Origin: Favolaschia claudopus
Taxonomy: Eukaryota > Basidiomycota > Agaricomycetes > Agaricales > Mycenaceae
NCBI GenBank assembly: GCA_037176885.1
Contig: JAWWNJ010000206.1
Location: forward strand, 124,001 to 188,000
Reading direction: 5' to 3'
DNA length: 64,000 bases
Shown here: positions 8,241 to 60,600 of the stretch, piece by piece
Position numbering within the stretch: position 1 is the first letter of the stretch
How the letters are laid out: each line of letters opens with the position of its first letter
The notes under the pieces: generated by a model
Database searches by the model: none
The model's input: the letters and a program-made list of their open reading frames with translations, nothing else
Told to the model about the DNA's origin: nothing
Position numbers and translations under genes: made by a program

Positions 8241-8572
8241 TTCGAGTGATACAAGAAGAAATCCGGGAGGAAAGAGTGCCCAGACGCGACGAATAGCAAG
8301 TGGATTGTGTTTGAGTTGACTCCGAGGGTACACGGCGGTTGTAGGAGCAAGAAAGACGCGTCGAGCGTCGAGGTAGCGGAAATGCCAGTGTGTGACAGTC
8401 ACAACAGTAACATGGGAAAGCTGATGCCGGCGGCAAATTTCAAAGTCCGCGACAGCCCTTTGACAGCCCCCGAGAGTTACCAGTCTGCTACGCCCGACGT
8501 GCTCGCCACAATTGTCGGCGCCGCGTAGCGGACTGGTTACGAGTCTAAAAGGGAATACAAGTTTGGCATCAG

Positions 8573-9631
8573 GTGCAGCATGTTGTGGTACTCGACGAAG
8601 TGATGAGACAAAAAGACGACCCGGCACTTCTCGACATCTTGAAGCGATTGCGGAAAGGACTGTGCACCGCCGATGATAAAACCATTTTAGATCGTTATGT
8701 GCTGTCAAATCCGGAGTGCAGCGATGCTACGAAAGCTCTCACCGATGTCCGTCGTTGGGTAGATGCACCCGAAAAAGCATGCCCGCTCATTGTGTATACA
8801 AACGTGGCTCGAGACAATCATAACTTGAATATGGCGAAAGCATTCTCCACTGTCACCAGTCAAGAATGTCATCTATATCATTCAAGAGACACGCGAGGCC
8901 GAGGCTCGAAAAAATACCAACTTACAGGAGTCGTCGCCGAGATTGCGTGGTCAATCCCGGTGAAGGAAGCAAACGATTTGGGTGGAAAGGTACCATACGT
9001 TGTCGGAATGCCAGTTTTCTGCACAGAGAATTTAGCAACTGAGTTAGGTATATCCAACGGTAGTCCAGGCACCATTGTATCCATTGTATATGAAGTCCAA
9101 GACGAACGCCGCTACGCTATTTCGGCTGATGTAGACTTCAAAGCGTACCGGAACAAAGACCTGAATGCCGAATTCCCTCACCGAGTCACCCTAAAACCAG
9201 TCACTGATGACATTAGCTTCAGACTCCCGAATTCAGAGAAAGTTTACACGGCTTCCCGAACCCAACTTCCTCTGATTCCTTCCTTCGCGTTTACTTCCCA
9301 TAACGCCCAAGGAAGATCGCTCGATGTTTGCTGTATTGATTTTGCGGGGTGTCTGAGCATTCAGAGTGCGTATGTTATGTTGTCAAGAGTTCGGAAACTT
9401 GAAGGACTGTGTATCCTTCGCCCATTCAAGCTAAACAAGATTCAGAATCACATATCAGAAGAGCTGAGAGCTGAGTTGCGAAGAAACGAGACAAAAGCAC
9501 AGAAAACCAAGGCCTATGCTCGTGAACGATTAGCATGGTTCTATGATTTAATACCGGAAGGAAAAGTTAAGCTCCTTCACGACGGAGTGTTTGATCAACA
9601 ATTGGAACCTTTAGATCTGAGAATTCTCTGA
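8573..9631 (+). pseudogene. PIF1-like helicase, C-terminal half only
   Basis: C-terminal half of a superfamily 1B (PIF1/Helitron-type) DNA helicase. The sequence resembles the family from LWHQVQHVVVLDEVMRQ (about 8560) onward, then LIVYTNVARD, and ends with the 2B/UvrD_C_2 region: PSFAFTSHNAQGRSLDVCC and SIQSAYVMLSRVRKLEGL (about 9280-9410). The N-terminal half with Walker A and B is not upstream. The plus strand between 8241 and 8560 keeps at most a scrambled trace, and stops interrupt every frame. About 350 residues remain as one uninterrupted exon, so the truncation is likely recent or the fragment is still selected. It is divergent from the DUF6589 gene. It could be a Helitron helicase remnant, but no Rep domain is present. 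Confidence 0.75.
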
Positions 9632-29412: not shown

Positions 29413-31683
29413 ATGGCTTTTCTCTGTCTCCTGACTCTCGTCGTCTCGTCCGTTGTCGCGGCAATATCAAGCACTCTCGTTTTTCACGAGCATCGTGCTC
29501 ACGCCCCACCTGGCTTCACGAGTCACGGCCGGGTCTCTGACAGCCACATGTTAACCCTACGGTTTGGTCTGGCGTCTAATAACGTCGCTGCACTTCAAGA
29601 CAAACTGCTATCGATTTCCACCCCCGGAAGTCGTGATTTCCGACAGTGGCTTTCCGAGGACGAGGTCTGTCTTTGGCTGCATCGTTTCACCGCTACCATC
29701 AGTAACCCAAACCCAGGTCAAAACATTCATGGTGCCGTCTTCCGACACAATAAACGCATTCAACACGTTCGCTTCAGCAAACGGCTTGCAAACCTCGGTT
29801 ATCTCACCCAACGGCGACTGGGTCTCTGTCACTCTGCCCGTGTCCAAAGCGAACAAACTCTTCGGCGCGGTGTATACGAACTTCTCCCACCCCGACCTCC
29901 CCGCACCCATAACCCGCACTCTCTCCATCTCTCTCCCCGCTGAGCTCGCCGGCCACGTCGACGTGATACACCCCAGCACGGCGTTTACCGCTCCCATCGC
30001 TCGGCGTGCGCCTTCGATATCCCGCAGTGCTCCCAAGCACAAGCGCGATGCGACTGCACCGGTTGATTGCGATACCATCGATCCAGAGAACAACATCACC
30101 CCCGCGTGTCTGCAGAACCTATATAATATCCCGACTACGCCCGCTACGCAAGGGAATAATACGCTACTGGTTACGGGATATGTGGAGGAATGGGCGGAGG
30201 TTGACGATCTTCAGGTATTTATAAACATAATATCCTACTCGGCGTGTTCGAGATTCATTTCATCGCAGGCCTTCCTCGCACAATTCCGCCCCGATTTACC
30301 TCCAAACCAGACATTCCTCACCGCATTGTTGGACGGCGGAACTAACCCACAGGGGCCAGGGATCGCGGGCTTCGAAGCTACTTTGGATGTTCAGTATGCA
30401 GCGGGTACGTGCTAATCGTTTATTCACCTCATCTTCATGTGTGCTCATCCGAGTCTGTAAAAGGTATCGCAACCGGCGTCCCGCTCCAATTTCTCAGCGT
30501 CGGAACCTTTTTATCGGATTTCCCGACCTCAGTCCTGGATACCACGACATTCCTTGCGAGTGCGGCACAGCTGCCGACGGTGGTTACGTCTTCGTATGGG
30601 CTGAATGAGGACTTTTTCGGGGCGTCGTTGGCTACGTTGGTGTCTTTCTTTTTGAAAGTGACTCTGAATGTCTAGTTCTTCCTCACAGGAAAATCTGCGA
30701 CGCCTTTGCGGGTCTCTCGGCGAGAGGGTAAGATTTCTTTCCGCTCCGAGATTTTGTTGACTCAATGGATGTACGCTCCTGTTCAGGGTCTCTTTTCTTT
30801 TCTCCTCCGGTGATGTTCGTGGTTGATTACCTCTGTTGAGCTTTCATTCACTCACTCATTCATTATTTATTGATTATTTCAGGGTGGAGTGAACGGAGGC
30901 CACGACAATGGAGATAAATGTGGTCTCTTCATCGCCTCATTCCCCTCATCTTGCCCCTGGGTAACAACAGTTGGGTCGACAATTGGGTTCAACCCAGAAC
31001 TCGCCGCAAATTTCACTGGTACATAATTCCGCTATCATATTCATCTCGCATCCGAATTTCCCTGCTCATTATAAGTTACTGGCACTTTGCAGGTGGCGGA
31101 TTCTCCAGCATCTTCCCCGCCCCATCCTACCAAACAACCGCCATCTCCAACTTCCTCAAAACCCTCCCACCGTCCTTCCCCGGGAACGCCAAATTCAACA
31201 CCACGAACCGCGCCTTCCCAGACCTCTCGCTCCAAGGAGTGAACTTCCTCATCAATTTTCGAGGGGAGATAGAGCAGGCTTTGGGGACTTCCGCGTCGAC
31301 GCCGAGTGTAGCGGGAATGGTTGCGTTGATCAATGATAGGTTGATTAAGGAGGGGAAACCTGTGTTGGGCTTTTTGAATCCGTTTTTGTATGCGAATGAG
31401 GGGGCGTTTAATGATGTTGTTAAGGGGCATAATAGTGGGTTTGAGTGTCCTGCTTCTTCGGTATGTTTGACTTTATTTATTTTCTAAGTGGAAGTATTCT
31501 TCCTGGGTTGGCTGAAATTTTGTTTCTTTTTGTAGGTTGCGTTTGACGCGGTGCCCGGGTGGGATCCTCTGTGTTCGTTGCTCGTTTGGTGATTTGTGGT
31601 ATTTGCGAGGACTGACTTAGATTTCTTTAGCTGGTCTCGGAACACCAAATTTCCCGGATCTCCTCGCAGCTGCGTTGGCATGA
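29413..31683 (+). CDS. Secreted sedolisin (S53 serine-carboxyl peptidase), copy B
   Basis: Close paralogue of the gene at 25878 with the same intron positions. The signal peptide is MAFLCLLTLVVSSVVAAIS. The activation domain runs from PPGFTSHGRVSDSHMLTLRF, with a basic site KHKRD before the mature enzyme. Catalytic Glu and Asp are in GFEATLDVQYAAG (about 30370-30400). The micro-exon encoding VSFLFSSGD is near 30787, and the nucleophile Ser is in GTSASTPSVAGM (about 31280). It ends DPLSGLGTPNFPDLLAAALA at 31683. No lesion was found. Differences from copy A cluster after the micro-exon (GGVNGGHDNGDKCGLF against GGVSGNHDDGVDCGLF) and near the nucleophile (EQAL against GQTA), so the two may differ in specificity or pH range. 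Confidence 0.9.
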
Positions 31684-36482: not shown

Positions 36483-38008
36483 ATGTCCAACACCACCCAC
36501 TCTGCCAGCCCACTTGTGCCACCCAAACCCAATGTATCTCTGCGATACGCCCATGTCACTCGATACGATCCCTCATTGCCTATGACTCCCGAAGCAGCCG
36601 TGCTGCTTCGTATTCTCTGCCCTCGGATGCTTTCTCCTCCTGCCCCCGCTATGGCGCAGTCTTGGGGAGCAATTCCCAATACGAACTTGGCTTGGTTCTT
36701 CTACGATGATGAAGAGGAGACAGAGGCTTTGTTGCGCTCTGCCTGTCAACCGACGCCCGAGACTGCTTTTGATCCGGTGATTGTGGAGGACGCGGATGAG
36801 GAGGAGACGATGGACGCTGCTGGGTCTAATCGGTTTGGTGTCTTCCCAATTGTGGAGGACGACGACGACGACGAGGCGAATCGGGTGTCGGTCCCGTCAG
36901 CCATTATGCAGCCCCCGTCCTTCGTGTCGTGTCCTGTCACTGAGGAATTAAAGCCACGCGATGCGTCGCAGAGGTCGAAGTCGGTGGCATCTCCCGCTCC
37001 GATGCTCGACGCGTTTTGCTTCAACCCGTTCGCTGACGAAGACGATCAAGTCAACGGTCAGGGCGTGCCAGCACGGTTCACGAACCCGGCCTCTCGTGCT
37101 TCCTCCGAGCTCTCTTCGCATTCGCATGGTACCTCCTTGACGTCCGAGTCTGCCGAATCGCCGCAGACCTCGCTCACATCCATCTCCGCATCCGACTTTC
37201 CCACCTTCTTCTCTCCCCTTTGCGAGGCTCCTTTGGATCCCTTCGAAGACGGCTACCTCATTTGGGCGCAGCGCATTCAAAACACCCCGAACATTCTCTC
37301 CCTCGTTCCCCGCATGATCGCCATGGGCATCAGCTCCCCGTCCAATGCGTACATTATGGCCCGCATCGCCGCACGTCTCGCCCTTGACGACTATTACTCT
37401 TTCGCTGTACAGATTGGTTGGGAGACTGTTCGGCGGTTCATGGCGTATTGGCAGGTGCGTTATCTCACTATCTATTCCCTGCCACTCACTCAATACTGAA
37501 TCAACGTATGCAGCCCGACGGTAAATGGCTACTCGAGTGCGTTCCATGCCTCCAATCTTCCTCATCCTCCTCTCCCGGCGCCGCCCTCGCCACCTTCCTC
37601 GCATACCTTCTCCAATTCAACATCATCACGCCTATGGATGCACACAATTGCCTCTCGCACATCCTTTCTCTTCCCCACCATTCTCACTCGCCATGTGCCT
37701 CCGTCATTCTCACGACCGTGCACGCTCTGGTCAAACATTCGGCCCAAGCGCTCGTCGATTGGCTTGACGGTGAAGAACTCACGCTGCTGTTGTTCAGTAA
37801 GGTTGGGGAGTGGGCGAGCGAAACCTTTGACGCGCATCTATGGGCTGCCGACGAAAGGTGTGCTGGGTTGATCAAGGTAAATTGGGCTTGTTCTACACAG
37901 ATGTTTGAGTTGATTCGCTGATTGATCTTTCAGGATATTCAAATCAATTTGTATGATAAGCTGTTGATTCTCTGGAACGATCAGCCTGGGAATGGGATAA
38001 TCGCGTGA
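36483..38008 (+). CDS. Basidiomycete protein of unknown function
   Basis: No family recognised. Three exons (36483-37454, 37514-37876, 37934-38008) join in phase to 469 residues. The N-terminal 260 residues are mostly disordered, with acidic runs (EDDDDDEAN) and Ser-rich parts (ASSELSSHSHGTSLTS). The C-terminal part is helical and well formed: LVPRMIAMGISSPSNAYIMA, ALDDYYSFAVQIGWETVRRF, ATFLAYLLQFNIITPMDAHN, then HALVKHSAQALVDWL. It looks like an all-alpha domain of the kind found in cyclin-like or MIF4G-like proteins, but that is only an impression. Codon usage and splicing are clean, so it is a real gene. Confidence 0.65.
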
Positions 38009-38879
38009 GTCATCCTGCGTTGTTCCTCTGGATAGCGTGTTAGGGCAGGCAGGGATGCGAATCTTGCGGTTTTTCCGCTTTTCGCGCGTGCAGTACAGTA
38101 TAGTATAGTGTACATATTCTAAAGTAGAACAGACAGTAAAATTTCTTTTCATCTCCTTCAACCTCTCGATGGCCGAATGAATTTGCGATAATTTTCTCCC
38201 TTTTCTGAAGTTGAGTTTTCGGCTGTGTCTGCCGACATCAATCATTTGGATCCTGCCGCGCTCGTCACGCGTGACGAATCTCTTTTGCCTCTTAACCACC
38301 ATCTGCACGTTCTGAACGGCGCATTGAGGACAATAAACTGAAGAATACCATCCTCGTACGTCTCTCAAATGAGCACAAGATACTAATTGTCGAGATGGCC
38401 AGCTCCGGGGACGGCAATAACCGAAACCACCTCAAATTGTCTTTTGTCGTACAATCTCGAGCGGTGCTCTATTTCATGCATAAAAGGTCTGCCGTGTCAA
38501 CGATTGGGTTAAATTCTGGTCCGCTTCCACATCGACGAGATAAAAACCAAAATGGAGTTGGCGCATCCTTGACCCGCCATAGCCAGCTGGCAATTACTAG
38601 TTTATGGCCGGCGAGCTCGGAACTCCTCTTGTTTGCCACTACCTGGTGCGACGCGGAAAACAATCCTCCGAGTCATATTTTGACGACCCACATAGCACCC
38701 GACTCCGCCGACTTTGCCCTTCCACCTTCGAAAGTCACTGTATTGCCGACCACTTACGCGTTATCCGGCTCGGATTCAGGTGGATCTTTTCTTCCATTTC
38801 TTGACTCTGTTGGAGTGGCTCCCGGTGTTTTGAACTAACGCTGAGACAGCGCAGAATAAATTAAAAATTTGGAGAAGCG
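38009..38879. other. Spacer without supported gene
   Basis: An open frame at 38395-38838 (147 codons, plus strand) lacks any family resemblance, and I leave it uncalled. The rest holds the 3' end of the previous gene and the promoter of the next. Confidence 0.4.
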
Positions 38880-38887
38880 TATAAATA
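38880..38887 (+). promoter_or_regulatory. TATA box of the epimerase-like gene
   Basis: TATAAATA lies 77 bp before the start codon at 38965 and is followed by a C/T-rich leader ending CACGCAAA just before ATG. Confidence 0.55.
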
Positions 38888-38964
38888 CGCCGGGTTCCTG
38901 CTCTGACATGTAATTACTTCTCTCCTTTACCTCCTCGTCCTCGTTCCCACTTACACCACGCAAA

Positions 38965-40039
38965 ATGAAAGTCCTTGTATTAGGGTGAGTCAATCTCTCG
39001 CAAGTGCTACAACATTGGCCCAGCTTATCGTCCTCTCGTCATACAGTGGAACTGGATTCATCGGATTGCCCGCTGCACAAGCATTAGTGCGGAAGGGACA
39101 TACTGTTTATTCCCTCGCCCGCTCCGAAGCCAAAGAAACAACTCTGGCAGCTGAAGAAAGTATGTCCACTGTTCAACTTTCTGCTCTCATCGTGGATAGT
39201 GTTGATTTCAATCGAATACACAGTCATACCAATCTCTGGCGACGTATCCTCCGACGCTTGGATCCCCCTCGTCGCGACTCTCGACGTCATAATCGAAACT
39301 GTCACCGCCTCCCCAGAAAGCTCCCGCTCCGTCTTCGAACGTGTTGAAGCAGCCGCAAGAGCCCTCCGCCCACCCGGCTCCCCTCCTCTCTCCTACATCT
39401 ACACATCGGGCACATGGGTTCACGGCGACAGCCGCACCACCACCGTCACCGACACCACCCCCATCCTCACCCCCGCGAAACTCGTCGCCTGGCGCCCCGC
39501 CATGGAGCAGCTCGTCGTCAGCAGCACCGTCCTCAACGGCATTGTCATCCGCCCGTCGCTGCTCTACGGCCGCTCTGCCTCAATTTTCGGGATGTTGTTT
39601 AAAGCAGCGGCGGAGGGGAAGGTGAGTTGGCCGGGGACGCCCGGGGGCAGGTATGCGGTGGTGCATGCGGATGATTTGGCGGAGCTGTATGTGTTGTGTG
39701 CGGAGAAGGCGAGTGTGGTTGGGGGGAAGATTTTCGATGGGGCGAATTCGGTGACGGAGTCGGTGGATGATTTGTTGGAGAAGCTGGTGAGGGTTTCAGG
39801 CGCGAAGGGGCCGTATGAGTATAGGGAGCCGGCGGATGGTATGTCTTTCGTTGGAGATTTTGTTTTGGTTCTTCAATTCATTGACGATACTCCTTCTTTT
39901 AGCGTTCGAGGAGGCGATTACGACGACCACGCTTCTTCGTCCGTATCTTGCTAATGCGTTATTGGGATGGACACCGAAAAAGCAGGGCTTTGTTGATGGG
40001 CTGGAGATGTATTACGTTGCTTGGCAGGCGTCTCTTTGA
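38965..40039 (+). CDS. NAD-dependent epimerase/dehydratase-like enzyme (extended SDR)
   Basis: Rossmann-fold oxidoreductase, probably cytosolic. Four exons (38965-38984, 39047-39159, 39224-39838, 39903-40039) join in phase to 294 residues. The first two exons together make the dinucleotide motif MKVLVLGGTGFIG followed by LPAAQALVRKGHTVYSLARS. The middle has LSYIYTSGTWVHGDS, where the catalytic-type Ser precedes the position normally held by YxxxK; that motif is replaced by WRPAMEQL here, so the active site is atypical. The substrate loop is VIRPSLLYGRSAS, then GTPGGRYAVVHADDLAELYV. The nearest kin are NmrA-like or atypical extended SDR proteins. The substrate is unknown. The very short first exon (20 bp) is typical for such genes in mushrooms. 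Confidence 0.82.
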
Positions 40040-40338
40040 GACAGTTTGTTTCCTTGATCCGCCGCCTCGCGTCGTGTGATTGTACGTGTTTTAGCCGTCT
40101 ATTTCTTTCATAGTTCATCGAACAATCATGCTGTCAACCCGTATTAATACTGAATTGGCCGCCTTCACTTTCTAGTAAATAATTCTTTCAAATCCCTTCT
40201 TCAGTGACGCTATCGCTGCTGCAGCTAATTCAAAATCATCATAGGTAATATTATGAGGGTTCTTCTCGTCATTCTCTGGGTACGCCGAACAAGTTACCTC
40301 ACTGCGCCCACAACATCTCAGAATTCTTGATCAACAAC
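40040..40338. other. Left flank of the transposon
   Basis: 3' flank of the epimerase-like gene; nothing else seen. Confidence 0.4.
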
Positions 40339-40346
40339 ACTGGCGG
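40339..40346. repeat. Target-site duplication, left copy
   Basis: ACTGGCGG immediately before the left terminal repeat. The identical 8 bp follow the right terminal repeat at 47073-47080. Confidence 0.95.
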
Positions 40347-40379
40347 AGGCCCCCGGCCACTACCGCCTAGGTCGGTCCG
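40347..40379 (+). repeat. Left terminal inverted repeat
   Basis: 33 bp beginning AGGCCCCCGGCCACTACCGC and ending GGTCGGTCCG. Its reverse complement is at 47040-47072 with one mismatch. Confidence 0.93.
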
Positions 40380-40389
40380 CCGATTTGGG

Positions 40390-40435
40390 CAGATTTACTC
40401 TACGAAATTTGGGCGTCGGAACCCAGATTTACTCT
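40390..40435 (+). repeat. Left subterminal repeats (two copies)
   Basis: CAGATTTACTCT at 40390-40401 and 40424-40435, 34 bp apart. Likely transposase-binding sites by analogy with other elements. Confidence 0.8.
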
Positions 40436-40470
40436 ACAGCGGACCGAATAAATAAAATAATATTTTTGTG

Positions 40471-43400
40471 CTATTTTTTCGCTTTTTTCGCCCCGCCAGC
40501 GCCTTTTTTACCCTTTGGAGCTCCTCCCCTCGCCTTTGCCAACGTTTTGGGCCGTGAATTTGAAGCATTCGGCTTTTTTGGAGCCTTCGCGTTGCTCGCC
40601 GTCGACTTGGACCGCTTCGATGCACCTCGAGGCGGCTTCGGCTTCCTTTTCTTGCTCCCTTCTTCCGGCTCGTCGTAGTCATCTTCCTCGTCTGAGAAAG
40701 TGTCGTCCGCGTCGTCTGCAACATGTAATGTGCGCCGCAATGCATCGGAGGTGAGTTTCTGCCAGCATTCCCAACCATTGTCACCGGCGGATAGTTTGAA
40801 CATGATTTCGTCCGCATTATCGCTAACCGGTCGCAAGGTGGCCCCGCTGAGTAAATAGACAAGTTCGGAAATGGGGGCATGTGTGAACAGGGCGAGTTCG
40901 CGATTGGTACCCGTGGAAGGGGCAATATGTTGGAAGAAATTCCGTCCCAGATGTAGCTGGGCAGATCCACAGTTGTTAGCGGCGGTTGTGACGCAAATGA
41001 AAAGTTCCATACCTGTTCATAGACCTCGAGGCTCAGATAGCTCAGTCCATCGACGGTTTCTGCGTCAGTGAAGCTTTCGTGCTTTCCTGATACTGACCCG
41101 TAGCGGTAGATGCCTTTGACTTTGCCTAGGTAGACCCGCAAACGCGATCGCATCACAACGAGGGAGTCCAGGGACATGACAGTGAGGCTGTTGATTCCCC
41201 GCGTCTGAATATGAGGCACTGGTGTCAAGAAAAATCCAATAAGCAAGTGCGAAGAAATTCAGTAGCTAACAAACATACCCGTTAACTCTCCGAGACTAAT
41301 ATGCAGATTGCAGCCCAGCTTCCACTCGACTGGTGGTCCCACAGCGATCCATCGACGCAGACGAGCCTTCTGAAATGCCGTGTCGTTACGCAATCCCTCG
41401 CTCTGCTGAACTGCCTCTTTCAAATGATGAGCAGCATGATTCAAAGAAAATTTTCCCCCAAGGTATCGGACGTCAGTTTCGGGGCGGCGGTCGGTTTCGG
41501 AATGAACATTGGTTCCGGCGCAATGCTGCGTCCGTTGAAGAGCAAGAGTCTGTCGCAAAATGGGATGTGTGCCGTTAAGGAAGGAAGGAATAGGACGGAG
41601 CTGCGGGCCAATGAATGGAGGGTCGACCGGGTTGAGTAACGCCGCAATAAGTATACGACCCGAGACATTCTTCAGGCTGTCTGGATTAGCCTCCAACTGC
41701 TGCTCGATTGCGACCAACTCTTCTTCACACTCGTCCGCCTGATCCGCCAGATATTGTTCGGTCAGCACATGATGCGACGCGTGGGCAAGAGCTTGAGCCG
41801 GGGAGAGAGATGAGCCAGGTAAAGTGTCAGAATCATTGACAATGGCAGCAATTGGCAGTGCCTGGGGGCGGGGAATGCGAATAGTATCCATCTTGATTGA
41901 GCTTGCGTCGATATTGTTGGCAAGGCTGATCTGTGCTTGAGACTCTTCGACGTCGGCATCTTCGACTTCCGGAGAGGATCCGGGTGATGAGCCACCATTG
42001 GCGGTTCGAAAATTGGGATGAAGATCACTTGGGCTGAGAGGAAGAGTCGGAATCTGCATTTTAGCGAATTGTGAAGCAAGGGCGGCAGCCTCATTCCATG
42101 CTATCTCGCAAGCACGATCAATATCGGCACGAGAAGGGACGTCTTTGAACTTGGCGACCTCCTCTGGCTTCATGTTTGAGTCGATAAAATCAAAACAATA
42201 GCCGTTGTTTGAATCCTTCTCCTTCTTCGTTTTATACTGGCCCGTGGAAAGAATTCGTTGGCGGATGAGAATGTGCTTGTACATCTCAATGAACTGTCCA
42301 AATGAAAAATCAGCGATGAAAGATCTTGCGATACCAAAGAAGTGTTCGAGAAAATGGGTTCCATGATGCCAGGGCATGAACGGAACGGTCGGGTAGAATT
42401 CCAGATGCGCCAGGGTGAGGAGAATGAACTGGTCACAAAGGCGCATCATGATGTTGAATGAGGAATCCGCCAAAAAGCTGCTCTGTGTTTGGAATAAATC
42501 CGGGTAGCGCTTTCCCGCGTCGACAATGTTGTAACGCCAGATCGTGAAGAAGTGGCGCGCGCGAAAAACGCAGACAACACGTTCAATGTGGGACATGCTG
42601 CGGGACATCCATGCATCAAATAGTTCGCCTGGTGGTGTTTCGATCGTGAATATCTAATCAATCGAATCAATTCGAGAAACTCACCGAAGATAAATGTCAG
42701 GATGAATAAACCCTCCAGTGACGGATGTCGAAGATCGCCATCTGGGCCGACAAGAAAGCTAAAGAGGACATTTGTGAACATCCGGCGCGCAGCTCCGTCA
42801 TCTTGTTTGTCAGGATTGAAAATGTCTTTGACATAAAGTGGGCATTTGACGAGATTGAGAAGAAACATGAGAACCGCGTGGCAGAGAAATAGGAAACCGA
42901 GAATGAGGAGGTGAGTGCCGTAGAGGAAGTTATTCCGAGCGGTTTTACGTCCGTGGTCCGGGTCAGTTGTGGGTACATGGGGGCCGGTGTCGGCGTATAC
43001 GGGACAGCTTAAGAAAACGCCGTACTTCTCGTATGTGTATGAGAGGCGCTCGGGAGTTTTGGCGTTGATCATGAGAGACTGTGCGTTGACCTCCGATTTT
43101 GCGCCGTCAGCGCCGCTTGCCAAAAGCTTCAAACCCGCAGCACCGCAGAGCTCGCGAAGCTTCAGATGATGGTCACGATATTCGGTACCTTTCATTTTCC
43201 CCTTGTTGGGAATGAAGGCGACGGGGAAAACAGGCATTCCGGGCAGTGGAATCTAGCGATCAATGAGTACGATTGAAATCGTGACTCGGGGGACTCCACA
43301 TACCTTTATTGCAATCACCCAAACCTGTGTTGCAATCTGTTTCTCTTTGTCAACTCGCGATATGATTCTTGACTGCTCTTCTGAGGTTTTGAAGAGAGTT

Positions 43401-46400
43401 TCACTCAACGGGAGGGTTGATCCGACAACGTGAGCAGAATCTTTCTCGCTGAACTCCGAAGAAACGGTGAGAAGGGGTCGCAGCTTCAATACAACAAGCA
43501 ATCAGACACGGCCGAAGTTTGAGATCGTGAAAAGCTTACCTTTGTGCCATCACCCGCTGCAATCCATGGGCCATCGTACCCCACAATTTTGGCGAAGTCA
43601 AGAGCAGCGGCTAAATTCTCGGCACAAAGTTCTGCGCTGACCATTTTTGTTGCAGATTTGGCTGCTCGACGTCTGAGAAATCGATCAATTGGGTTCAGTG
43701 TGAAGTAGAAGACGAAAAGTTACCGCATCTGACGCTGCGAGATAGCACCAGTCATCCCACTCATCAAATCATACTGTGCCCCCGAACGCGGCCCATACGA
43801 CCTCATCAAAGTACAAAACTTGACGAATGTCGGGTCATACCGCATGCCGTGCATCGCGCGCCCAGTTGGATCTTGGCTGCGTGTAACCCGCTCGGATAGC
43901 TGGTTAGATATGGCGAGAAATGTTTCCTCATCTTTCAATTCGCCGCGAGCGCCTTGCTGGTACAGGCTCAAGAACACGCCGATTGGGCCGTAGGTAGCCT
44001 TCGATGTCAGAATTTTGACCACTCGCGGGTTCAATAGACTCGCTTGCGCGGCTGAGGCGGCATTTTCGGTGCGAATCAACGGCGTATAGGCAATCCGCTT
44101 TGCCATCCATTTTGCGAATTTTTCGGGGGGTAGTCTGGCTCGTTCTCGGGCTCGACGAATCCCACGCCTGAGTCCAGGAAGCCGGCTGACCGCAATGCAG
44201 GCCGAACATGTACCATCTCGGCTTGTGGTTGTTCCGAGACAGCCTTTTGCGAATACGGTGCCCGTGTTGGCGTGAATTGTCCACCTAGCCGCAATCAAGA
44301 GACTCTGATTGAGCCGGCGTTTTTCGTAGTCTGTCCATCGAGGACGTTGCGGATGTCGGTTTGTGCTGATGGGTATCCCCTCGAGCGCGAGCTTGGCGGC
44401 CTGACTGCAAGCATCCTGGACAACTGCAGCGGGAGGAATGTTGTCAGCAACATCGGAATCACTGGAGTCTGAGTCGGTGTTTTCTGGCCATAGCTTGTAG
44501 GGAAATAATTTGTGTCCAAACGGCATCCAGGCCGTCGCAGAGACACCACCAAGCGACGAATCACCCATTTGGTATGCATATTCGCGATACCCGTCGCCGT
44601 GTAGTCCACGACATTCAACCGGCGTAGCCCATTGACTTCGCGGCCCAAGAGGCGGCTGCATACTCGTGGAGGTTTTCAGCCAACCACCATCGAGCCGCTT
44701 ATCCTGAAACTCAACGGTAAATATCATCGTTAATAAACTTGAAGAACGGTATCACGAACTGCAGTTATGATAGTCTTAGCGACTTGGGGAACGAGCGGCA
44801 GTTTCACGTTGGATTGTGTATTCTTCGCTGCTTGTTGAACAGAGAAAAATGCCGCAATTCCGACCTGTTTAACGTCGATTGGTAAGTTTCTCCCAGGACG
44901 TGATTCGCACATACTTTTGCTACTGTCTGTGCTTGCCCTAACTGTTTCGGCTTCGCTCCCGGTCTAATATTTGTAACGAGCTCGCAAACCTTCTGATGGG
45001 AGGCCCAGTTTTTGAGGTTGTATCTCTTCTCGCGTTCAAGTTTGATCGGTTTATTTGGCAAGCAACGACAGAAGATTTCGTGCGGAGTGCCCTTGAGTGA
45101 ACCATCAGGCCGCTTGACGGTGTGCGAGTCGGCAAGGAGAGCATTAAGACGCTCGGTTTCGTTTGTCCTGGCTGCGCGAGGAGCTGTCTCTTTAGCACGT
45201 TTCTTGCGCCGCAGTTTTTTCCTATTTAACGAATCAAAATTCGGCAAATTAATTGCGTATCAGGAATTTGCTTACTTCTCTTCGTCCGACGCATCATAGT
45301 CATCATCCGAGACGGATTCGACTACCATCTGCTTCATTATCTTTTTATTAACCGGTGATGTTGCTCCTTCATCGGGAGCGGAGCTATTCGACGGAGCAGC
45401 AGAAGCTGGTGTGGGATGAAGAACAGGTGCGGGAGAACTCGGGGCTATCTCGGGATTGAGAAGATCGCTGAGCGCGATGGCTGGCGTATAATTCAGATAT
45501 GTGTCGCCGAAAGTATCGACAATGTCCTCGATCTGTTCAACGGGGATAAAAAGGGGATCGAGAGGCTATATATACCATGAGCGTCGAATTTAATTAACAA
45601 TTGCAGAAATTTGTGCTTACCTCTGAGAATCCAGAGAGCGCAAGAAATTTCCTCAACCATGCAATCCTCGCACTCTGACATTGGCTCTCCGACATCACTG
45701 GCACTCCAAAGACTGCATGTTCGATGGTATTGGCCGTGTATACACCACAGTGTACATAGTCTGTCTGTGTGGCATGGACAAGACAATCTCCCTCGAAAGT
45801 GAACTCTCCGGGAAACTCGAGCGCCAGCCAATTTCGGAGATACCTAATAAATCGTCTCGGCGGAGAGCCGTAGATATATGAATCCCCTGATGGCATTGAT
45901 GAGAGAAAAATCGAACGGCTACTGGCGAACATACCATATCCGAATGTTCTATTGGAGAAATTGATGGTGAAGGCCATCCAATGGTTTCCATTATGGTGGA
46001 TCGGGAAAAATACTCGACTCTTGCCTCCCTTGATCTCTGCTATGATGCTGTCGAGGTATTTCTTTGGCTTTGTACCATGTTCCGCCAGCTGGGTGAGATA
46101 GAACTGGAAAGCGAGAGGGAGAATGAGGGTGGAAGAAAGCGCGGGATCGGCTTCCACGCATAATTTTATATGGCGCATAATCTCGTCTATAATTCCGCCA
46201 GAGAGCCATTCGTCGCCAAGAAGGCGGGTCCAATCCAAATGTCCATCAGGCGCGCCGACATGTTTGATGTTCCAGGGAACAAGATCAAGAAGATGTTTCT
46301 CGGCATCTGGCAGCCAATTCGAGCTTTCCATCCACTTTTGCTGGGCCGCTCGAAGCTCGACTATTTGACGGAAGTATGAGGGGCTCCAGAGAGGGAGACG

Positions 46401-46790
46401 TTGAGTACCAGTAAGTGGGTCGATAATAGACAGACATCCATCGAGCCAAGCTTGGGAGATATCCTGCTCCAGTGCGCGGATAACATTGAGGGAGGGGATA
46501 CTTTTGAGAGATTGAATATCTTCGCCCCAGTTGGGTGGCTCGCGACTGAACCAGGAAGCTAGGTGAGGCGCCGGCATGATGGCAGCATCGTGCAGAACCT
46601 CCGGGAGTTGCACGGCAAGGAATTCGGTGACAAGAAGATCGTTTTTCGGGAGCCGCTGTATCACCGATGTGGGAATAGTGCGTGCAGCCAAACAAGCCGC
46701 GGAAACGTGCAACGGCACGTTTTGATAGAGCTTCTGCTGTCCAATCCACTCAGCAGGATCAAAGACCGGCAGGTCGTCGTCGATGTCCAT
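40471..46790 (-). CDS. Giant transposase: Ulp1/C48 protease fused to P/THAP9-like transposase
   Basis: Twelve exons join in phase to about 1,915 residues: 46790-45935, 45886-45621, 45565-45276, 45221-44915, 44864-44739, 44703-43724, 43672-43540, 43483-43304, 43252-42685, 42628-41279, 41218-41013 and 40956-40471. Residues about 220-390 are an Ulp1/SENP-like C48 protease with His (GNHWMAF), Asp (YGDS, formed only after removal of a 48-bp intron), Gln (TQTDYVHCG) and Cys (HCGVYT). An acidic linker follows, then a Cys/His segment (EIFCRCLPNKPIKL, NWASHQKVCELV). The transposase part has DPTFVKFCTLMRSYGPRSGA, a first Asp in AAGDGTK, a second in LLASGADGAKSEVNAQ, DPDHGRKTARNN and an acidic FLEHFFGIARS, in the order seen in P-element/THAP9 enzymes. 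The tail is Lys-rich, suited to DNA or nuclear binding. Assignment to P rather than KDZ is inferred from motifs alone. Confidence 0.8.
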
Positions 46791-46937
46791 TGCGGAAGCG
46801 CTTCAATTGGGTCGGTGGACGCGTCGCAGAGGCTTGAAAAATTTCGGCATGATGCTGTAATTGTTGTGAGCTGATTGGCTGCTTCATCCGCCTCGACCCG
46901 ACGGAAAATCTTGGCGCAACCGGTCGTTTTGGGAAGC

Positions 46938-47035
46938 CAGATTTACTCTAAGTCGGTCGGACATCGTTGGTTTTGGGGCAGATTTACTCTAATTTGGAGA
47001 CCGAAAATTGCGATTTTCGAGCTCAGATTTACTCT
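46938..47035 (+). repeat. Right subterminal repeats (three copies)
   Basis: CAGATTTACTCT at 46938-46949, 46979-46990 and 47024-47035. They lie in the same orientation as the left copies, so they are direct, not inverted, relative to the ends. Confidence 0.8.
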
Positions 47036-47039
47036 AATT

Positions 47040-47072
47040 CGGACCGACCTAGGCGGTAGTGACCGGGGGCCT
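47040..47072 (-). repeat. Right terminal inverted repeat
   Basis: 33 bp ending GTGACCGGGGGCCT; reverse complement of the left repeat with one mismatch. Confidence 0.93.
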
Positions 47073-47080
47073 ACTGGCGG
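47073..47080. repeat. Target-site duplication, right copy
   Basis: ACTGGCGG, identical to 40339-40346. Confidence 0.95.
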
Positions 47081-47886
47081 CATGTATAGTCTCCACGGTG
47101 TTTCTAGATCCTTTGTGTCCCGATGATCCGGGTGGACGCGGCCGTCACCGGATCTTTTGTCAAATTTTGTTCTGCTGCTGTCGTTTCTTAAGCCAGCGCA
47201 TTGAGCACAGAGGTCGGACAAAACGCAAACCGAGTTCTTGTAATGAGGCACCGATCCCCGGGTGATCCGGAGGATCTTCGGGTGTTCCGCGTTACAAGGC
47301 TTCAGTCACGGTCACTCTTTTTGCTCTTTCCCTCTTGCACAAAATCTGAATCGACTCAGATGAAGTCCTTTTCAACAGCTACAGCTGGGTAAATCACTCT
47401 CTGGCTATCACAAGAGGCTGCTCCCAGCATTCGACTGCTGGTGCGATGGATGGATCTGGAATCACAGTCACTTGCGGCACTCGAGGGCCCTAATTAAAGT
47501 ATATGTTTGAATTTGGAGGAGCAGACTGAACCTCTCAGACATAACTTGACCAGGATATCAATATCCGACACTTTCGTGCGTTTTGTTGTTCATTTTCAAT
47601 TTTCCACCGACGCACTCGAAGTCGAAATAGATGGATTAAGTATTTGTGAATTATTCATCTTCAACGACTGGTTATCTGCAGGGCAATTCTACTGCCTCAA
47701 AACTGTTGGGATTGGCAGTTGTGTGCAGCTCCCGGCTCTCGCGTACCTGAGTCAAATGGGTGAGAAAGCGGCCGCCGCAGACTGACAGCGGCGCAGTGAT
47801 GCTCAGCTGACTGAGACTGACTCTCACCACCCCTTCCTCCGAGTCTTGCTCTCATTCTCACTGTCGCCCCACTCACTCTGCTCACA
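47081..47886. other. Right flank of the transposon and P450 promoter
   Basis: Short open frames only; no gene supported. The last 100 bp are C/T-rich and probably the leader of the P450 gene. Confidence 0.4.
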
Positions 47887-50640
47887 ATGCCTTTCCCCCC
47901 AGGCATCCTCTACCTCGCTACCCATCTCCCGAAACTCCTTGTTCCGCCCCTTTTCGTCTATTGCGTCAAATTTACTGCAGAATCATGCCTGGACTCGATA
48001 ATTCCGGCGTGGCTAGCCACTCTGGCCTACATCCTCAGCGGCCCCGCATTCCGCACGCTTCTCGTGCAATACCGGGACTACTGTGTCCGTTCTCAAGCAG
48101 CCGCACACGGCGCTGTGCTGCCTCCCGCTCTCCCTGGATCTATCGGCGGGCTCCATATGCTTTTCGCGAAAGTGAAAGATATGTATCCTGGTACGTTCTG
48201 ATTATTTCTCCCTCTCAATCATTGATCGACTGATATATGCGCTATACTAGTGGAACCTCTGGCGTCGTTCATGTTGGAGAAAGGATATACTCTCACCATC
48301 CGCTTTCTCTTTCAAGATCGCGTACGTGCGCTTCCCACCTCTCTTTTCTCCCGGAGGGAAAATTTACAGAAATCAGATCATGACCGCAGAACCGGAGAAT
48401 ATCAAAGCCATCCTCGCCACCTCTTTCCCCGACTTCGAAAAGGGTCCAGAATTTCAACGGTTAATGGAGCCGCTATTGGGAACTGGCGTCTTTGCCGCTG
48501 ATGGTCAGTCGCATTTTCATCTCAGCGCTTGAATCTGATGCACGCTCTCAAAGGCGACATGTGGAAGTGAGTTCCTCCATTTTCGCGTCTGTTCTCATAC
48601 ACAATTGCACTCCCAGATTTCATCGCCAGATGACCCGACCATTCTTCCACCGCGAACGTATCAGCGATTTCGACAACTTTGACTCGCATGCTACGAACGC
48701 GATTGCCCAGTTCAAGGCTCGATTGAGGGAGGGGTGTGCGGCGGATTTTCAAGTGAGCTCTTTCATTTTGAATTTGTGATTCACTTCAAATTCTGGCAAA
48801 TCTCACGCTTTCTCTCAATTTCGTCTAACATCAATCAACTGACCAAATCCTCGACATACAGGACATGGTCGCGCGTTTCACGATGGACACCGCGTCCTCC
48901 TTCCTCTTCGGCAAAGACGTCCGCAGCCTCGACGCGGGACTTCCATACCCGCACAACTTCTCTCCTCCCTTCTCCTCTGAGTCCACTTTCTCCTCATCCA
49001 ATACGATTCAGACGACCCACGCCTCCACCGAATTCGCCAACGCCTTCCAATCCGCGCAAACCATCACCGCGCTTCGAACACGGCTCAACACTCATTGGCC
49101 GTTGGCGGAATTTTGGAAGGATGATCTGATTGAGCCGATGCGTGTTGTGAGGGGATTTTTGGATCCGATTTTGAGGGAGGCGGTGGAGAAGAATAGGGGG
49201 AAGGTGGGAAGCGGAGAAGGGGGAGTGAAGGGGAAGGAGAAGGATGTGAATGCCGTGGAGGATCGACAGGTGTTGGAGGGAGAGACGCTTTTGGATCATT
49301 TGGTTGATTATACGGAGGGTGAGTTTCGACTTCATTTGTCCTTGTATTCTTCTTTCCGCCTTTTATATATATCCGCTATTCTTCCGCTGTTCGTTGAGGC
49401 GCTTTTTGAACTCAATTTCATTGTAGACCCGATTATCCTTCGAGACGAGATCCTCAATATCACTGCTGCGGGGCGGGATACGGTGCGTTCTGATTTGTAC
49501 CTCCCTCTCCCTTTGTTCCTTCAGAGTTCACTCACGAATCTCTTACCCACAATTAATCGCTAAATCTATAATAGACCGCTGCCCTCCTCACATTCACAGT
49601 GTACATGCTGGCTGAACACCCCCAAGTCCTATCCAAGTTGCGTGAAGAGATTTTGCGTGAAATCGGACAGATTGCACGTCCGACGTACGATAATTTGCGG
49701 GATATGAAGTATTTGAGGGTGAGTTCGGATCACTGCGTTTCCCTTCTAGGACCTATGTGACCAGCATGCGCATCTTTCTTACAGGCTGTATTGAATGGTT
49801 TGTTCTCGAGATATTTTGTCCGTTAGAGACTCACCAGGTCGTTCATGAAGAAACACTTCGGCTATATCCGCCTGTGTGAGCCTTCTTCGTCTGATCTAGC
49901 TAATTCAACTCGACTCAATTCTCGATTGAACAGTCCATTCAACGTCAGAACTGCGCTCAAACCAACTCTATTCCACTCGAACATCAAAGGGAGCCCTCCG
50001 TTCTTCGTCCCTGCTGGTACTCGTTGCGGGTTCAGCACGATCCTCATGCACAGGCGCACAGATTTGTGGGGACCCGATGCGCTGCAATTCGATCCGGAGA
50101 GGTTTCTAGATGAGAGGCTGCACAAGTATCGTACGTTTTCTCGCTTCGCCTTGTTTTGTCCCGTTAGCGCTCGATTCACCTGATAAAATTCAAGTGACAC
50201 CGAACCCATTCATATTCCTTCCGTTCAATGGTGGTCCGCCCTTAATGCTCTTCTCTCGTCATGCATTCCCATCTCAGCTGTATCTTTAGGACCAAGGATA
50301 TGCCTCGGACAACAATTCGCTTACCACGAGGCATCCTTCTTCCTCGTTCGCCTCCTCCAGACATTCTCCGCGATCTCGCTCGATCCGGACGCCCAACCCC
50401 CCGACGCACGCCCTCCAGCGAAATGGAAGACTGATGAAAAGATGGTGAAGACCGGGTGGACGCCGCATGAGAAGATTCGGCCGAGGAGTCATTTGACTAT
50501 GTTCGTCTATGTGCGTTTTCTTTTTCTGAGTTTCCAGTCTAAACTTCAAACTACTTTCGTTGACGGTGGTTATTTAGGGTGGATTGTGGGTGCGGATGGA
50601 GGAAGCTGGACATGAAGATGAAGGCAAACAAGCCCGTTGA
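47887..50640 (+). CDS. Cytochrome P450, CYP63-like
   Basis: Haem monooxygenase of the endoplasmic reticulum, in a clan used by wood- and litter-decay fungi to oxidise alkanes, fatty acids and aromatics. The N-terminus has hydrophobic segments ([28 protein letters not shown]). The oxygen-binding helix I motif AAGRDT spans an intron near 49480-49575. The ExxR motif is in EETLRLYPP (about 49850). The haem loop is [20 protein letters not shown], with the Cys ligand, at about 50228-50330. It ends [20 protein letters not shown] at 50640. More than ten short introns, as is usual for CYP63. The insert rich in Gly and Lys ([15 protein letters not shown]) lies in the variable middle. No lesion was seen. 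The substrate is unknown. Confidence 0.9.
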
Positions 50641-50779
50641 TTGGAACCCGGCTTTGTGTAATGTGTCCATCAGCGAAACAAAGAATGTTATCTTTCAAAG
50701 GGAAAGCCACATCCCACATGACCATCGCCTCTGTGTTTCTTGCCACCACCATTGCCTCCTCATTCCTCCAATCTCTTCC

Positions 50780-52033
50780 ATGGCCGTTCTCACTCGCTCT
50801 CGAGCTGCTGCTGAGGGAGCGAGAAAATCGATCCTCCGGTTTCCTAACGAGATCCTTTCCATGGTGTTGGAATACTTGTCGACCTCAGAGCTTCGGGGTC
50901 TTTGTCGGACCTCCAAGCGTCTGCGTTCTATTGCCACTCCGTTTTTGTATCGGAACATACACTTCCGTAGCGCGGGACAGACTGTGCTCTTCATTCGTAC
51001 AACGCAATCTCAGCCTTCAGAATCCTCCGAGTCGTTGTTGCTACATGTACAGGAGTTTGTGGTAGCAAACGACAAGGCGCTTGTGTGCGTTTCACTCTTT
51101 CCTTCTCCAGTCGGCTTTCACTGATGAGCTTGAATTCGAAGGGGTGTGACGTCGCAAATCATCGACGACTTGAATTCTGTCGTGATAAAAATGACCAAAC
51201 TCAAACACCTCCTCCTGTCGTCCAAGGCTTTTATCGAGTTCACGGATCTGTTGCATGACTCAAACTTTGAGCAGCTGCAGACGTTTCGATACGTCCTAGG
51301 ACCGGCGGAAAGCTCCACGGACCCTGAGGAATTTCTGAAATTCCTTGCGCGCCACCGTACAACGCTCACAACTTTGTGCATTGACTGCGAAGAACCTATC
51401 ACTTTTGCGCAGTCGATAGACTTGCCTCTGTTGCATACCTACGACGGACCGAGCTGGGCGCTGAAATCTCTCAAGAAAAGTGTCGGCTCGCTTCGATCTG
51501 TGGTCTTGAGGTGGCAGGAACCCGATATCGACTACCGATCACCGTTGAAACAACTATCCAAGGCACACTCACTTCAAACTCTCGAGATTGCCATCGTCGA
51601 CGTCTCGCCGGGGAGGCTGAGAGAGCCTACGCTCCTCGCTGCCGTGGCTCAATATGTACCACATATCAAGACTCTCAGATTTAGCAGACCAGCACTTTAT
51701 GGGTTTGCTTTTGTTGGTTACTTTTCACCTCGGCATGCTGGATTTCTGATACGTTTAATTGGGAGTTCTAGGACGATTTGATGCCGATGCGACAGCACCT
51801 AGGCAGATTCACGGCGCTTTCGGGGTTGCGGTTTGCGATATTCAGGAGGGAGTCGGTGTCTGCGTTGAATGATGATCTCCCCGTTCTCGATGCGTGGTTG
51901 CGTGTGTGTGGAACCCTCTGTATGGTTCATCTCGGTACGCCTGATTCGTTGCCTATTATTGATTTCTGGTGACTCTTTTACAGACGGAATGGACTGGAGA
52001 CTTGTTGATGGCGCATGGATTCCTTCCGGTTAG
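50780..52033 (+). CDS. F-box protein with LRR-like C-terminus
   Basis: Probable substrate adaptor of an SCF ubiquitin ligase. The start at 50780 gives MAVLTRSRAAAEGARKSI, then the F-box FPNEILSMVLEYLSTSELRG with LCRTSKRLRSIATPFLYRNI. After an intron at 51085 come leucine-rich strands (MTKLKHLLLSSKAF, TLCIDCEEP, HSLQTLEIAIVDV, VPHIKTLRFSR, LSGLRFAIF). The last exon ends DGMDWRLVDGAWIPSG at 52033. About four exons; phases match at the junctions checked. The N-terminus resembles that of the F-box gene at 31931 (VLTR.RAA), so the two belong to one expanded family. It starts 139 bp after the P450 stop on the same strand. Confidence 0.75.
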
Positions 52034-57699: not shown

Positions 57700-60600
57700 T
57701 CACCACCTCTGGCCCCTTCCAATTCTATTCAAACACCATATTGCAGTAACCTCCAGTGAAGGATCGGGATGGAGATTACGAATCCGAGTCGGATGCGCGA
57801 CAGATAATAGGAAAGCATCCCATACGCTGTTATCGCTACCTTCCAGCACAGACCGGGTGGCGGAGATGATGGATCCGACCTCTTTATCGGAGAGCTGGTG
57901 AATTTCAGCAACAATGTATGCTCCCAAGCTGAAGTCCAGTCTGTGTTCTGATACGGGGAGAGAGCCAAGCCGATACATATGCATGATTCTGATTAGATCG
58001 GACGATGTGGTTGACCGAACGAAGTCGATGCTGGGAAGTTCGGAATCGGGAATCTGGGGGATCCGTTGTCCGGCCAGGACATGATAACATCGAGCATTAA
58101 AAAGCCCAAGAAAGAAGTTTTCTGCCCATTCTTGAATCAAATCATGGGGTGCTCGGTGTAGCTAATAGCATTCGAATCAGGATCCATGTCAATTTAGAAG
58201 AAGTGTGTGGATGCAACGACGTACTTCAAGCCATTCAATGAAACGCCCACTCAAGTGCACCGGAAAGTTGAATGACAGTATCAGGTCCAACTTTATACAA
58301 TACAGGAGCCTGATTAGCTCTGGAGTAAGCCGGACGGTTGTAATGAATGGCAGACATGAAATGAGGTGGCTTTCAAGATCAAATAGCAACCAGTCAGCCG
58401 TAGTGCAAAGCAAACGATCGAGCAGAACTCACTGTGCCGGATCCAACTCGCCTCTTTGGCTTGGATTCTGAGATAAAGCCTGAAGCGTATCTGTTGCGAG
58501 ATTCTGTCGGTCTATCTTGCTGAAGTGAAACTTTCGAGAGCGGCTGGGATCGCGGAGAAAATCGAGGAATGAAGCATGGTATACAGAGATGTGGTGGTCT
58601 ACCGCCGCTTCGATTAGGCCAAGGCGATCTTCGATTTTGATGAGGGAATGAAGCCTTCGTATCGTCAGAAATATATCTCTAGGTTTCAACCCGAGGAGCT
58701 GCCCTATTTGAGCGACAGAGAGGCGGCCGGTGAATTCAGCTGCAATGACTGACAGGACCCGGGAGAGCTGGGGTCGATATGGAACCATGCTCAGGATTTG
58801 AAGGTAAAGCTCGTCTAGCGCAGAGAAGGGCGACATGTATTCAGGATTCTGTTCCTGTGAGTGAAGTCGAGTAACGATAACTAGACGTTCGACCGGGTCG
58901 AAGTCGTTGTCCTCGACGAATCTGATGACCGTGGCGGCATAGACGAAGTGGCCAGACGATTTGTCGATTATATGACGGATGAGATCTTCCTCCGGCCAGG
59001 GACAAGATATGCTAGCCATCGCAGAGTGAGTTTCGGCAATCCGTTTGAATTCATCGATGAGATAGACCTCCACGTCTTCCAAAGAGCCTTGGACGGTTAG
59101 GTGCCCACAGGAAGAAAGCGCAGCCTCGCTGAACAATTGTTTGATGTGGAGCTCTGGCCTGCTGACGATGAGAATGCGTAGTGTGGGCTGGGAAAATTTA
59201 ACAAGGGAGCGCAAAATTTCCTTTTGCCGGGCTTCGTCTTCGCATTCATCGAGGCCGTCGATCACAATGACCAAGCTACGGTCATCCGAAGTGTTGGAGT
59301 CATGGTAAGGCTCGATTAAAAGTCGCTGGAGTTGAGCGGGGAGCGATTTGTCGACGACAGCGGGATCCGATGTCAGGCGCAGCGCGATAGCGGCTTTGAA
59401 GGAGGGGCAAATGAGAGCAAGCTGATACGCGATCGTTGGCCAGAGTTTGGCAGCATTCCCGCGAGATGGGTGGCCGCGTTTGAAAAAAAAGCTGCCGGCG
59501 AGAGAATTCTGGGCTTGGAGTTCCTCGCAGAGGGATTGGGCGATGGCGGATTTGCCGGTCCCTGCGGGGCCGCGCATCCAGAGTACCTGCGACGCGGAGT
59601 CACTGACATCTTGCGACCACGTTGCTAGATGGTCAAGGATTTCCAACCGGGTATTTGGGTGGCAGGGTGGATGGGTGAAGCTCTCGCCGGCGTCGTGAGT
59701 GGCATCGGCGGCAGATGCGTTGTATAGGATGCGAAGCGCTGCCTTACGGTGAGACAGCGAAAGAATGAGGATATGTTTGGGATGCGTACCCGCGTCGGTC
59801 TGAGAAATATCCATCCATTATCCGTAAAATACAAGAAGTAAAGGTGTACTTACGTTCGAGTTATCGATCTTGTTCTCGATTGACATAGTAATTTCGAGCT
59901 AGGATTGCATTAGAAAAAGCTCGATTATCTAGCTACATACTTACATGGAAAGATCTGAGTCTTCCGTCGATTCTCTGTATTGCGGTTTCAATGATCTCGA
60001 TATCTTCGTCGCTCTCGAGGATTTTCTTCAGCGTGCTCCGTTTCGACAAGGAGTCCAGGTCGGCCAATTCGGTGATCAGGTATCTTGAGCGAAAATTACA
60101 GTGAGCGAAACAGAATGATGAAGGAAAAGAGAAATAGCAAATCCCAGCGTACTCAGAAAACGCGCGAATCCGGGTCTTTGCTTCGGTCGACGGGGTTTTT
60201 GGAAGTACAGCGTTCACGATGTCGACTTGTTGCGAGACTTGTTCGAATAGATCGTGGAGGTGGTCGTTATTCTCGGATACAGTCTGAGAATCATGCATGA
60301 ATACATTCACCTCGAATAGAATGGAAGGTGAGAAGCAAGTTACAGTGCTTACCGTAGCAAGATCAACGATAGTATTGATGACGCTGAAGGGGATTTTGAA
60401 GGGCGACCCTTCAAGCATTGGTTCGACCTTCGTTAAGAGGAGGGTCAGTCCGGATTTGAGGGTTCGGAGGTGAGTTTGGGCGAGGGTAATGTTGGGTGGT
60501 TCTAATTATTCATTTAGTCGAAAAGCATGTCTATTGGATACGAGCCAAGGATGAAGAAAAGAGCCGTACTCTGGTGGGTGCTGTCCGCCGAGTCCCGAGA

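Follow-up and report, generated by a model that had tools for sequence, protein, structure and literature searches.

We analysed a 64-kb window of the Favolaschia claudopus genome (contig JAWWNJ010000206.1, positions 124,001 to 188,000 of the forward strand; "the window" below is this whole stretch of 64,000 bp). Within it lies a 6,726-bp element that carries one long spliced gene between terminal inverted repeats (TIRs) and is bordered by a target-site duplication (TSD). Most probably, the element is an autonomous DNA transposon of the cut-and-paste type and belongs to a fungal branch of the P superfamily. The features of the locus, in window coordinates, are:

40339..40346, no strand: left TSD, ACTGGCGG; empty sites carry one copy of this octamer
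40347..40379, plus strand: left TIR, 33 bp, one mismatch to the right TIR
40391..40402, plus strand: subterminal repeat no. 1, AGATTTACTCTA, 45 from the left end
40425..40436, plus strand: subterminal repeat no. 2, 79 from the left end
40471..46790, minus strand: single spliced gene encoding 1,908 aa, with an Ulp1 peptidase, a presumed zinc finger, a P-like transposase core and a basic tail
42258..43848, minus strand: transposase core, aa 894-1352; the match to the fold of the Drosophila P transposase comes from its homolog P0004
44984..45070, minus strand: presumed zinc finger CxC-x(n)-W-x2-H-x3-C, aa 522-550, not THAP by Pfam
45633..46016, minus strand: Ulp1/C48 peptidase domain, aa 259-370; H270, D287, Q326 and C332 align with yeast Ulp1
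46939..46950, plus strand: subterminal repeat no. 3, -134 from the right end
46980..46991, plus strand: subterminal repeat no. 4, -93 from the right end
47025..47036, plus strand: subterminal repeat no. 5, -48 from the right end
47040..47072, minus strand: right TIR, 33 bp
47073..47080, no strand: right TSD, ACTGGCGG

An initial annotation of this DNA had described 33-bp TIRs with one mismatch, a perfect 8-bp TSD and a single gene without lesions, all of which held; the subterminal repeats and the Ulp1 peptidase are additions to that description. The two TIRs match at 32 of 33 positions, and the left and right copies of ACTGGCGG are identical (8/8). Within the window, five matches to the 12-mer AGATTTACYCTA (at most one mismatch) were counted against an expectation of 0.21, and all five fall inside the element in one orientation, two at the left end and three at the right. 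Elements of the P superfamily have TIRs of about 31 bp together with internal repeats; here, the TIRs are 33 bp long and the five repeats share the same orientation rather than being inverted.

The gene runs from 46790 to 40471 in 12 exons, joined across 11 GT...AG introns of 48-60 nt that were picked by hand, and its 1,908 codons contain no stops; for the intron at 44704-44759, a shorter in-frame alternative also exists. NCBI's model of this gene (P0001, 1,255 aa) covers residues 654-1908 at 100% identity, and the N-terminal third is missing from it. The longer N-terminus is supported by an independent model from Mycena amicta (P0003), since it aligns with residues 1-1549 of our protein at 58%. 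Residues 259-370 match the Ulp1/C48 peptidases (Pfam E 1.1e-6; yeast Ulp1 1euv, E 3.1e-4) with the complete catalytic set H270, D287, Q326 and C332, and an Ulp1 Pfam domain (E up to 0.1) was found in 8 of 47 relatives, many of the others being partial models. A C-C-H-C motif similar to residues 522-550 is present in 11 of the 16 relatives inspected, and lysine and arginine make up 27% of the tail that follows the core. The core itself contains D976, D1088, D1136-x2-H1139 and E1323, within which three motifs appear in the order ADGAKSE, DPDHGRKTARNN, FLEHFFGIARS (D1088, D1136 and E1323, respectively).

Structure, profiles and the signature string all support kinship with the P superfamily. The RNase-H core with an inserted domain that the initial annotation had proposed to look for was found through homolog P0004. 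Its core matches the fold of the Drosophila P transposase with a Z about 10 units higher than that of the next family; the helical insertion lies between strand 5 and helix 4, and the structurally aligned residues are 12% identical. In the same fold list, to whose families the comparison extends, hAT, Transib and RAG1 had much lower Z. Similarly, aligning the fungal family with a set of P proteins in hhalign gave 93%, with the catalytic and signature columns in register. The relatives entered these comparisons as hand-picked subsets, A1 (22 of 38), A3 (13 of 38) and A4 (47 of 126 proteins), and set A5 comprises 27 P proteins among 120 listed matches (164 in all). In the profile alignment, the fly residues D230, D303 and E531 pair with D259 (D in 42/46), D371 (D in 47/47) and E606 (E in 41/41) of P0004, and fly D339-x2-H342 pairs with D419-x2-H422 (D in 43/45, H in 42/45). 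The family therefore has a DDE triad with D-x2-H after the second D, the latter being a signature string of P transposases (PMC8230255). Four further fly residues are matched in most of the aligned relatives: K345 (43/44), N349 (40/45), F534 (39/41) and R538 (39/41). The profile alignment was extended with relaxed settings; the catalytic and D(2)H pairings are identical under default settings.

The cofactor pocket is where the fungal family departs most clearly from the animal enzymes. Canonical P elements require GTP and cleave DNA with a 17-nt stagger. Of all transposases and integrases, only P transposase is described as having GTP for a cofactor, which it binds through the eight contact residues K385, K400, V401, S409, F443, D444, N447 and D528 (PMC7776569). 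In our alignment, K400 and V401 are replaced by two aspartates (45/46 each) within a conserved motif, QDDxAA (Q in 44/45, the two alanines in 40/46 and 45/46). Among the aligned relatives, S409 becomes mostly C or H, D528 becomes E in 28/43 and F443 becomes L in 30/41, and K385 and N447 have no counterpart in the fungal family alignment. The sole possible survivor is D444, which would correspond to the invariant D516 (41/41) if the local alignment were shifted. Across the 27 P proteins, by comparison, the K400 column is K or R in 21 and the other contacts are kept in 22-27, and a preprint reports that zebrafish THAP9 retains the GTP residues (PMC10983969). Because most contact residues are replaced, two of them by QDDxAA, use of GTP as in the fly enzyme is unlikely, and the sequence predicts that the fungal enzyme is probably independent of it. 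A branch that shares the fold and the catalytic string of the fly enzyme and lacks most of its GTP contacts opens the origin of the GTP requirement to direct test.

That the element inserted into this locus in the past is seen directly at empty sites with a single octamer. A 30-mer joining the two flanks across one octamer occurs exactly at C205:211628-211657 and C89:234886-234915, with one mismatch at C89:514958-514987 and with three mismatches at C178:339525-339554; each flank alone matches these four empty places and the window. At the first of these C89 sites, the two flanks (3.8-3.9 kb each; 85% and 83% identity) lie back to back and the element is absent. At C205, a single alignment of about 1 kb (91%) spans the junction, and the right flank is not collinear farther out. 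The flanks, 36500-40338 and 47073-51000, are part of a segment that has further copies on C178, C205 and, at several places, C89; its longer matches are about 79-89% identical. The empty-site copies are duplicated segments and not proven alleles, and since they carry a single octamer, the insertion postdates the split of these segments. Of the initial claim that the element had recently moved, the movement stands; the near-identical TIRs and the open gene make a recent date plausible, with no closer dating.

Searching the genome with the 33-bp ends, as the initial annotation had proposed, recovered further copies with the same type of ends and 8-bp TSDs. No full-length, high-identity copy other than the window's own was found among the best 40 of 140 candidates. 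There were 30 TIR matches in the genome, two of which are the window's own, and all 28 others were examined: 23 have a partner end, and five (L024, L027, L038, L040 and L048) have none in the stretches examined. Most of the 23 paired copies are short, with 19 at 395-432 bp, two at 363-364 bp, one at 188 bp and one at 2,985 bp. A perfect 8-bp TSD borders 22 of them (one after a 1-base end correction), and the remaining one matches at 7/8. Since there are contigs that repeat one another, the 23 copies come down to 18 distinct sites when judged by their TSD letters. The five repeats stand at the same places (within about 1 base) in 17 of the 23 paired copies, and the two nearest the right end are kept in all 23. 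Since most of the first batch of short copies with both ends have in common with the window element about 118-151 bp per end (76-87% identity), they look like its derivatives, which the same or a related transposase may be able to move. With a looser 18-base end pattern in which three positions are free, the whole genome gives 635 matches (329 and 306 on the two strands), as opposed to 0 for the reversed control.

A second element lies at C15:174668-181524. It is 6,857 bp long, has identical 33-bp TIRs and the TSD ATGAATGT, and is apparently autonomous. In the three longest pieces, its protein matches P0001 at 47-57% identity; it appears to be the annotated protein P0008 (1,474 aa). At the level of exons, 42 matches to the family were found in the genome (among the best 37 of 103 candidates), and by this measure the family is diverse in Favolaschia claudopus. 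Some individual loci are also worth recording. The same TSD, in forward or reverse-complement form, recurs within the groups L028/L030/L047, L033/L034, L035/L037 and L039/L043, which suggests duplicated or haplotypic stretches of the assembly. The 2,985-bp element (L032:6755-9739), with matching TIRs and the 7/8 TSD, keeps the right-end repeats and lacks those of the left end. At L023:7313-8623, about 7 kb from the 188-bp copy, lies a divergent relative of the element's protein, comprising both the N-terminal part and the core (25-30% identity).

Several observations weigh against placing the element in the P superfamily. No Pfam model of the superfamily matches the full protein (limit E 10, with filters dropping most matches above about 0.1). 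The TNP-like RNase H and GBD models match neither the window protein nor its 47 relatives, and the positive control P0127 matches all of them. A scan of the 47 relatives with Pfam P models gave only PF12017, in two proteins (best E 0.088), and PF21787 matched nothing in this genome or in the control genomes. Sequence searches of the PDB with family profiles did not reach P transposase, and hhalign weakened with the smaller sets, to 79.6% (A3) and 64% (A1). Two prolines invariant in the 27 P proteins, P341 and P547, are mostly K and, in 37/39 relatives, F, and fly WKQ (266-268) has no counterpart in the default alignment. The window protein has no Pfam match to THAP, and most GTP contacts of the animal P/THAP9 proteins are replaced in its family. 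At the same threshold, the C15 element has only three repeats, one at 89 from its left end and two at -94 and -48 from its right end, keeping the five-repeat layout in part. Present activity, including current movement, as well as end binding, the Ulp1 substrate and GTP independence, are matters that we infer. The initial annotation had seen motifs in P/THAP9 order; the three motifs were confirmed and the P-superfamily kinship was supported, but with no THAP domain, no Pfam P domain and mostly unlike GTP contacts, this is not a canonical animal P/THAP9 protein.

Some of these observations would also fit a separate superfamily, sister to P, that owes the split RNase-H fold and the D(2)H string to deep common descent and should not be named P. 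This alternative, which we judge improbable, draws on the lack of Pfam P matches and of a PDB sequence match to the fly enzyme, on the replaced GTP contacts and P-invariant residues, on the 12% structural identity, and on the N-terminal Ulp1 domain and C-C-H-C motif in place of THAP. It is countered by the gap of about 10 Z units to the next family, by the 93% profile comparison with catalytic and signature columns in register, and by the 8-bp TSDs and TIRs close to 31 bp, as in P; perfect TSDs border the window element, the C15 element and 22 of the 23 paired short copies, the last being 7/8. Far less probable is an element of the KDZ (Kyakuja-Dileera-Zisupton) type, even though such elements, which likewise make 8-bp duplications, give at least 202 matches in this genome. 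One of these, a transposase fragment at 1409-2161 (+), lies in the window and served as a positive control: the Pfam KDZ model finds it at E 9.8e-36, yet gives no match to the window protein. Ten KDZ domains, hand-picked among the 202 matches, gave 0.1% in hhalign against the fungal family, as opposed to 100% for one half of the KDZ domains against the other, and among the matches listed (best 150 of 699 candidates) none lies at the element. Placement in KDZ, which the initial annotation had named as grounds for refuting its reading, did not come about. The KDZ control structure had a pLDDT of only 38, which also detracts from the P assignment, because the distinction from KDZ then rests on the profiles. 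A domesticated host gene sitting between old TIRs would fit the open reading frame and the one full-length copy found among the candidates compared, and it is the least credible reading of all, given the near-perfect TIRs, the perfect TSD, the single-octamer empty sites in duplicated segments, the structurally equivalent C15 element and the 635 matching TIR ends genome-wide.

Read as a P-superfamily transposon, the element suggests a mechanism that begins with its single protein binding both ends. The five subterminal AGATTTACYCTA repeats are the probable contact points, and their layout constitutes a concrete binding-site prediction. The ends would then be paired, and the DNA cut and rejoined by the RNase-H active site (D976, D1088 and E1323), which is interrupted by the helical insertion domain, leaving 8-bp TSDs. 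The fused Ulp1-type cysteine peptidase would probably act on the transposase itself, or on host proteins of repair or silencing, by stripping off SUMO or a similar modifier. A bolder scenario, which we hold tentatively and regard as possible rather than likely, is that of an old fungal P branch working without GTP, in which the guanine-nucleotide pocket of the insertion domain turned into the acidic QDDxAA site, perhaps with a metal or another cofactor bound, and the Ulp1 SUMO protease was recruited as a functional component of the transposase that counters SUMO-dependent silencing or repair by the host.

The family extends well beyond this genome. Two protein searches, each scoring only the best 8,000 or so candidates by shared words, were made. 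The first returned 38 relatives, one in Rhizophagus and 37 whose source names are those of Agaricomycetes (Mycena, Favolaschia, Rhizoctonia, Ceratobasidium, Botryobasidium, Gelatoporia, Fomitopsis, Suillus, Hericium and Melanogaster). The second, profile-based search returned 89 (one common to both), including Puccinia, Melampsora and many Glomeromycotina. None of the 47 relatives scanned matches a Pfam transposase model at E <= 0.05, and genes of this kind can therefore easily stay annotated as "hypothetical protein". The premise of the initial annotation that a fungal P element would be notable in itself proved wrong, because P elements of the rusts Puccinia and Melampsora, previously unknown in any Dikarya, were published in 2011, those of Melampsora with 8-bp TSDs (PMC3164196). 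Likewise, "P-Fungi" is a class of its own in a Pleurotus repeat table (PMC12387193) and stands beside "P" in one for Daphnia (PMC8594854). We infer that the lineage described here is the same as, or close to, this "P-Fungi"/rust P class. A fungal P element as such is thus not new; what is noteworthy is that the GTP pocket is replaced, that Ulp1 is fused to the transposase and that the ends carry five repeats in a fixed, asymmetric layout. In the literature searched, which covered few subscription journals, we found neither a fusion of Ulp1 with a P-type transposase, which is weak evidence of absence, nor a P lineage without the GTP contacts; either may already be published.

The window is rich in genes of mobile elements. 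Besides the KDZ fragment, it contains a Plavaka transposase fragment at 16667-17974 (+; Pfam E 9.5e-59) and a DUF6589 protein at 6244-7677 (-; Pfam E 1.5e-66). An open frame at 8549-9631 (+) has no Pfam match at 0.001 and looks like the C-terminal part of a Pif1/Helitron-type helicase. Other genes encode a NACHT/NPHP3_N protein at 58429-59817 (-), an NLR-like architecture common in mushrooms, a Pro-kumamolisin activation domain (sedolisin-type protease) at 29555-30415 (+) and a CFEM-domain protein at 11627-12490 (-).

Among the closest known systems are the rust P elements (Repbase P-1_PSt and P-1_MLP; PMC3164196), which are likewise assigned to P and hosted by Basidiomycota; Puccinia and Melampsora proteins fall in the family of the window element. 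The Drosophila P element (PDB 6P5A/6PE2; PMC7776569) resembles it in the split RNase-H core with its helical insertion, the DDE and D(2)H residues, the TIRs of about 31 bp, the 8-bp TSD and the internal repeats near asymmetric ends. Unlike Drosophila P, the window element has no THAP domain, has most GTP contacts replaced and is fused to Ulp1, and in place of 11-bp inverted repeats, it carries five 12-bp repeats in the same orientation. The P elements and P-derived miniature elements (P-MITEs) of Anopheles offer a parallel for an autonomous element accompanied by short derivatives, the latter keeping about 100 bp per end and 8-bp TSDs, but their hosts are animals and their transposases are described as like those of known P elements (PMC1562414). 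Ulp1 domains occur in other transposons, namely Ginger1 and Mutator (PMC2836005), where a transposase is likewise accompanied by an Ulp1-type cysteine peptidase. Their cores differ, that of Ginger1 being integrase-like, and the peptidase is C-terminal in Ginger1 and N-terminal in the window element, which adds a P-type case to this recurring link between transposases and ubiquitin-like proteases.

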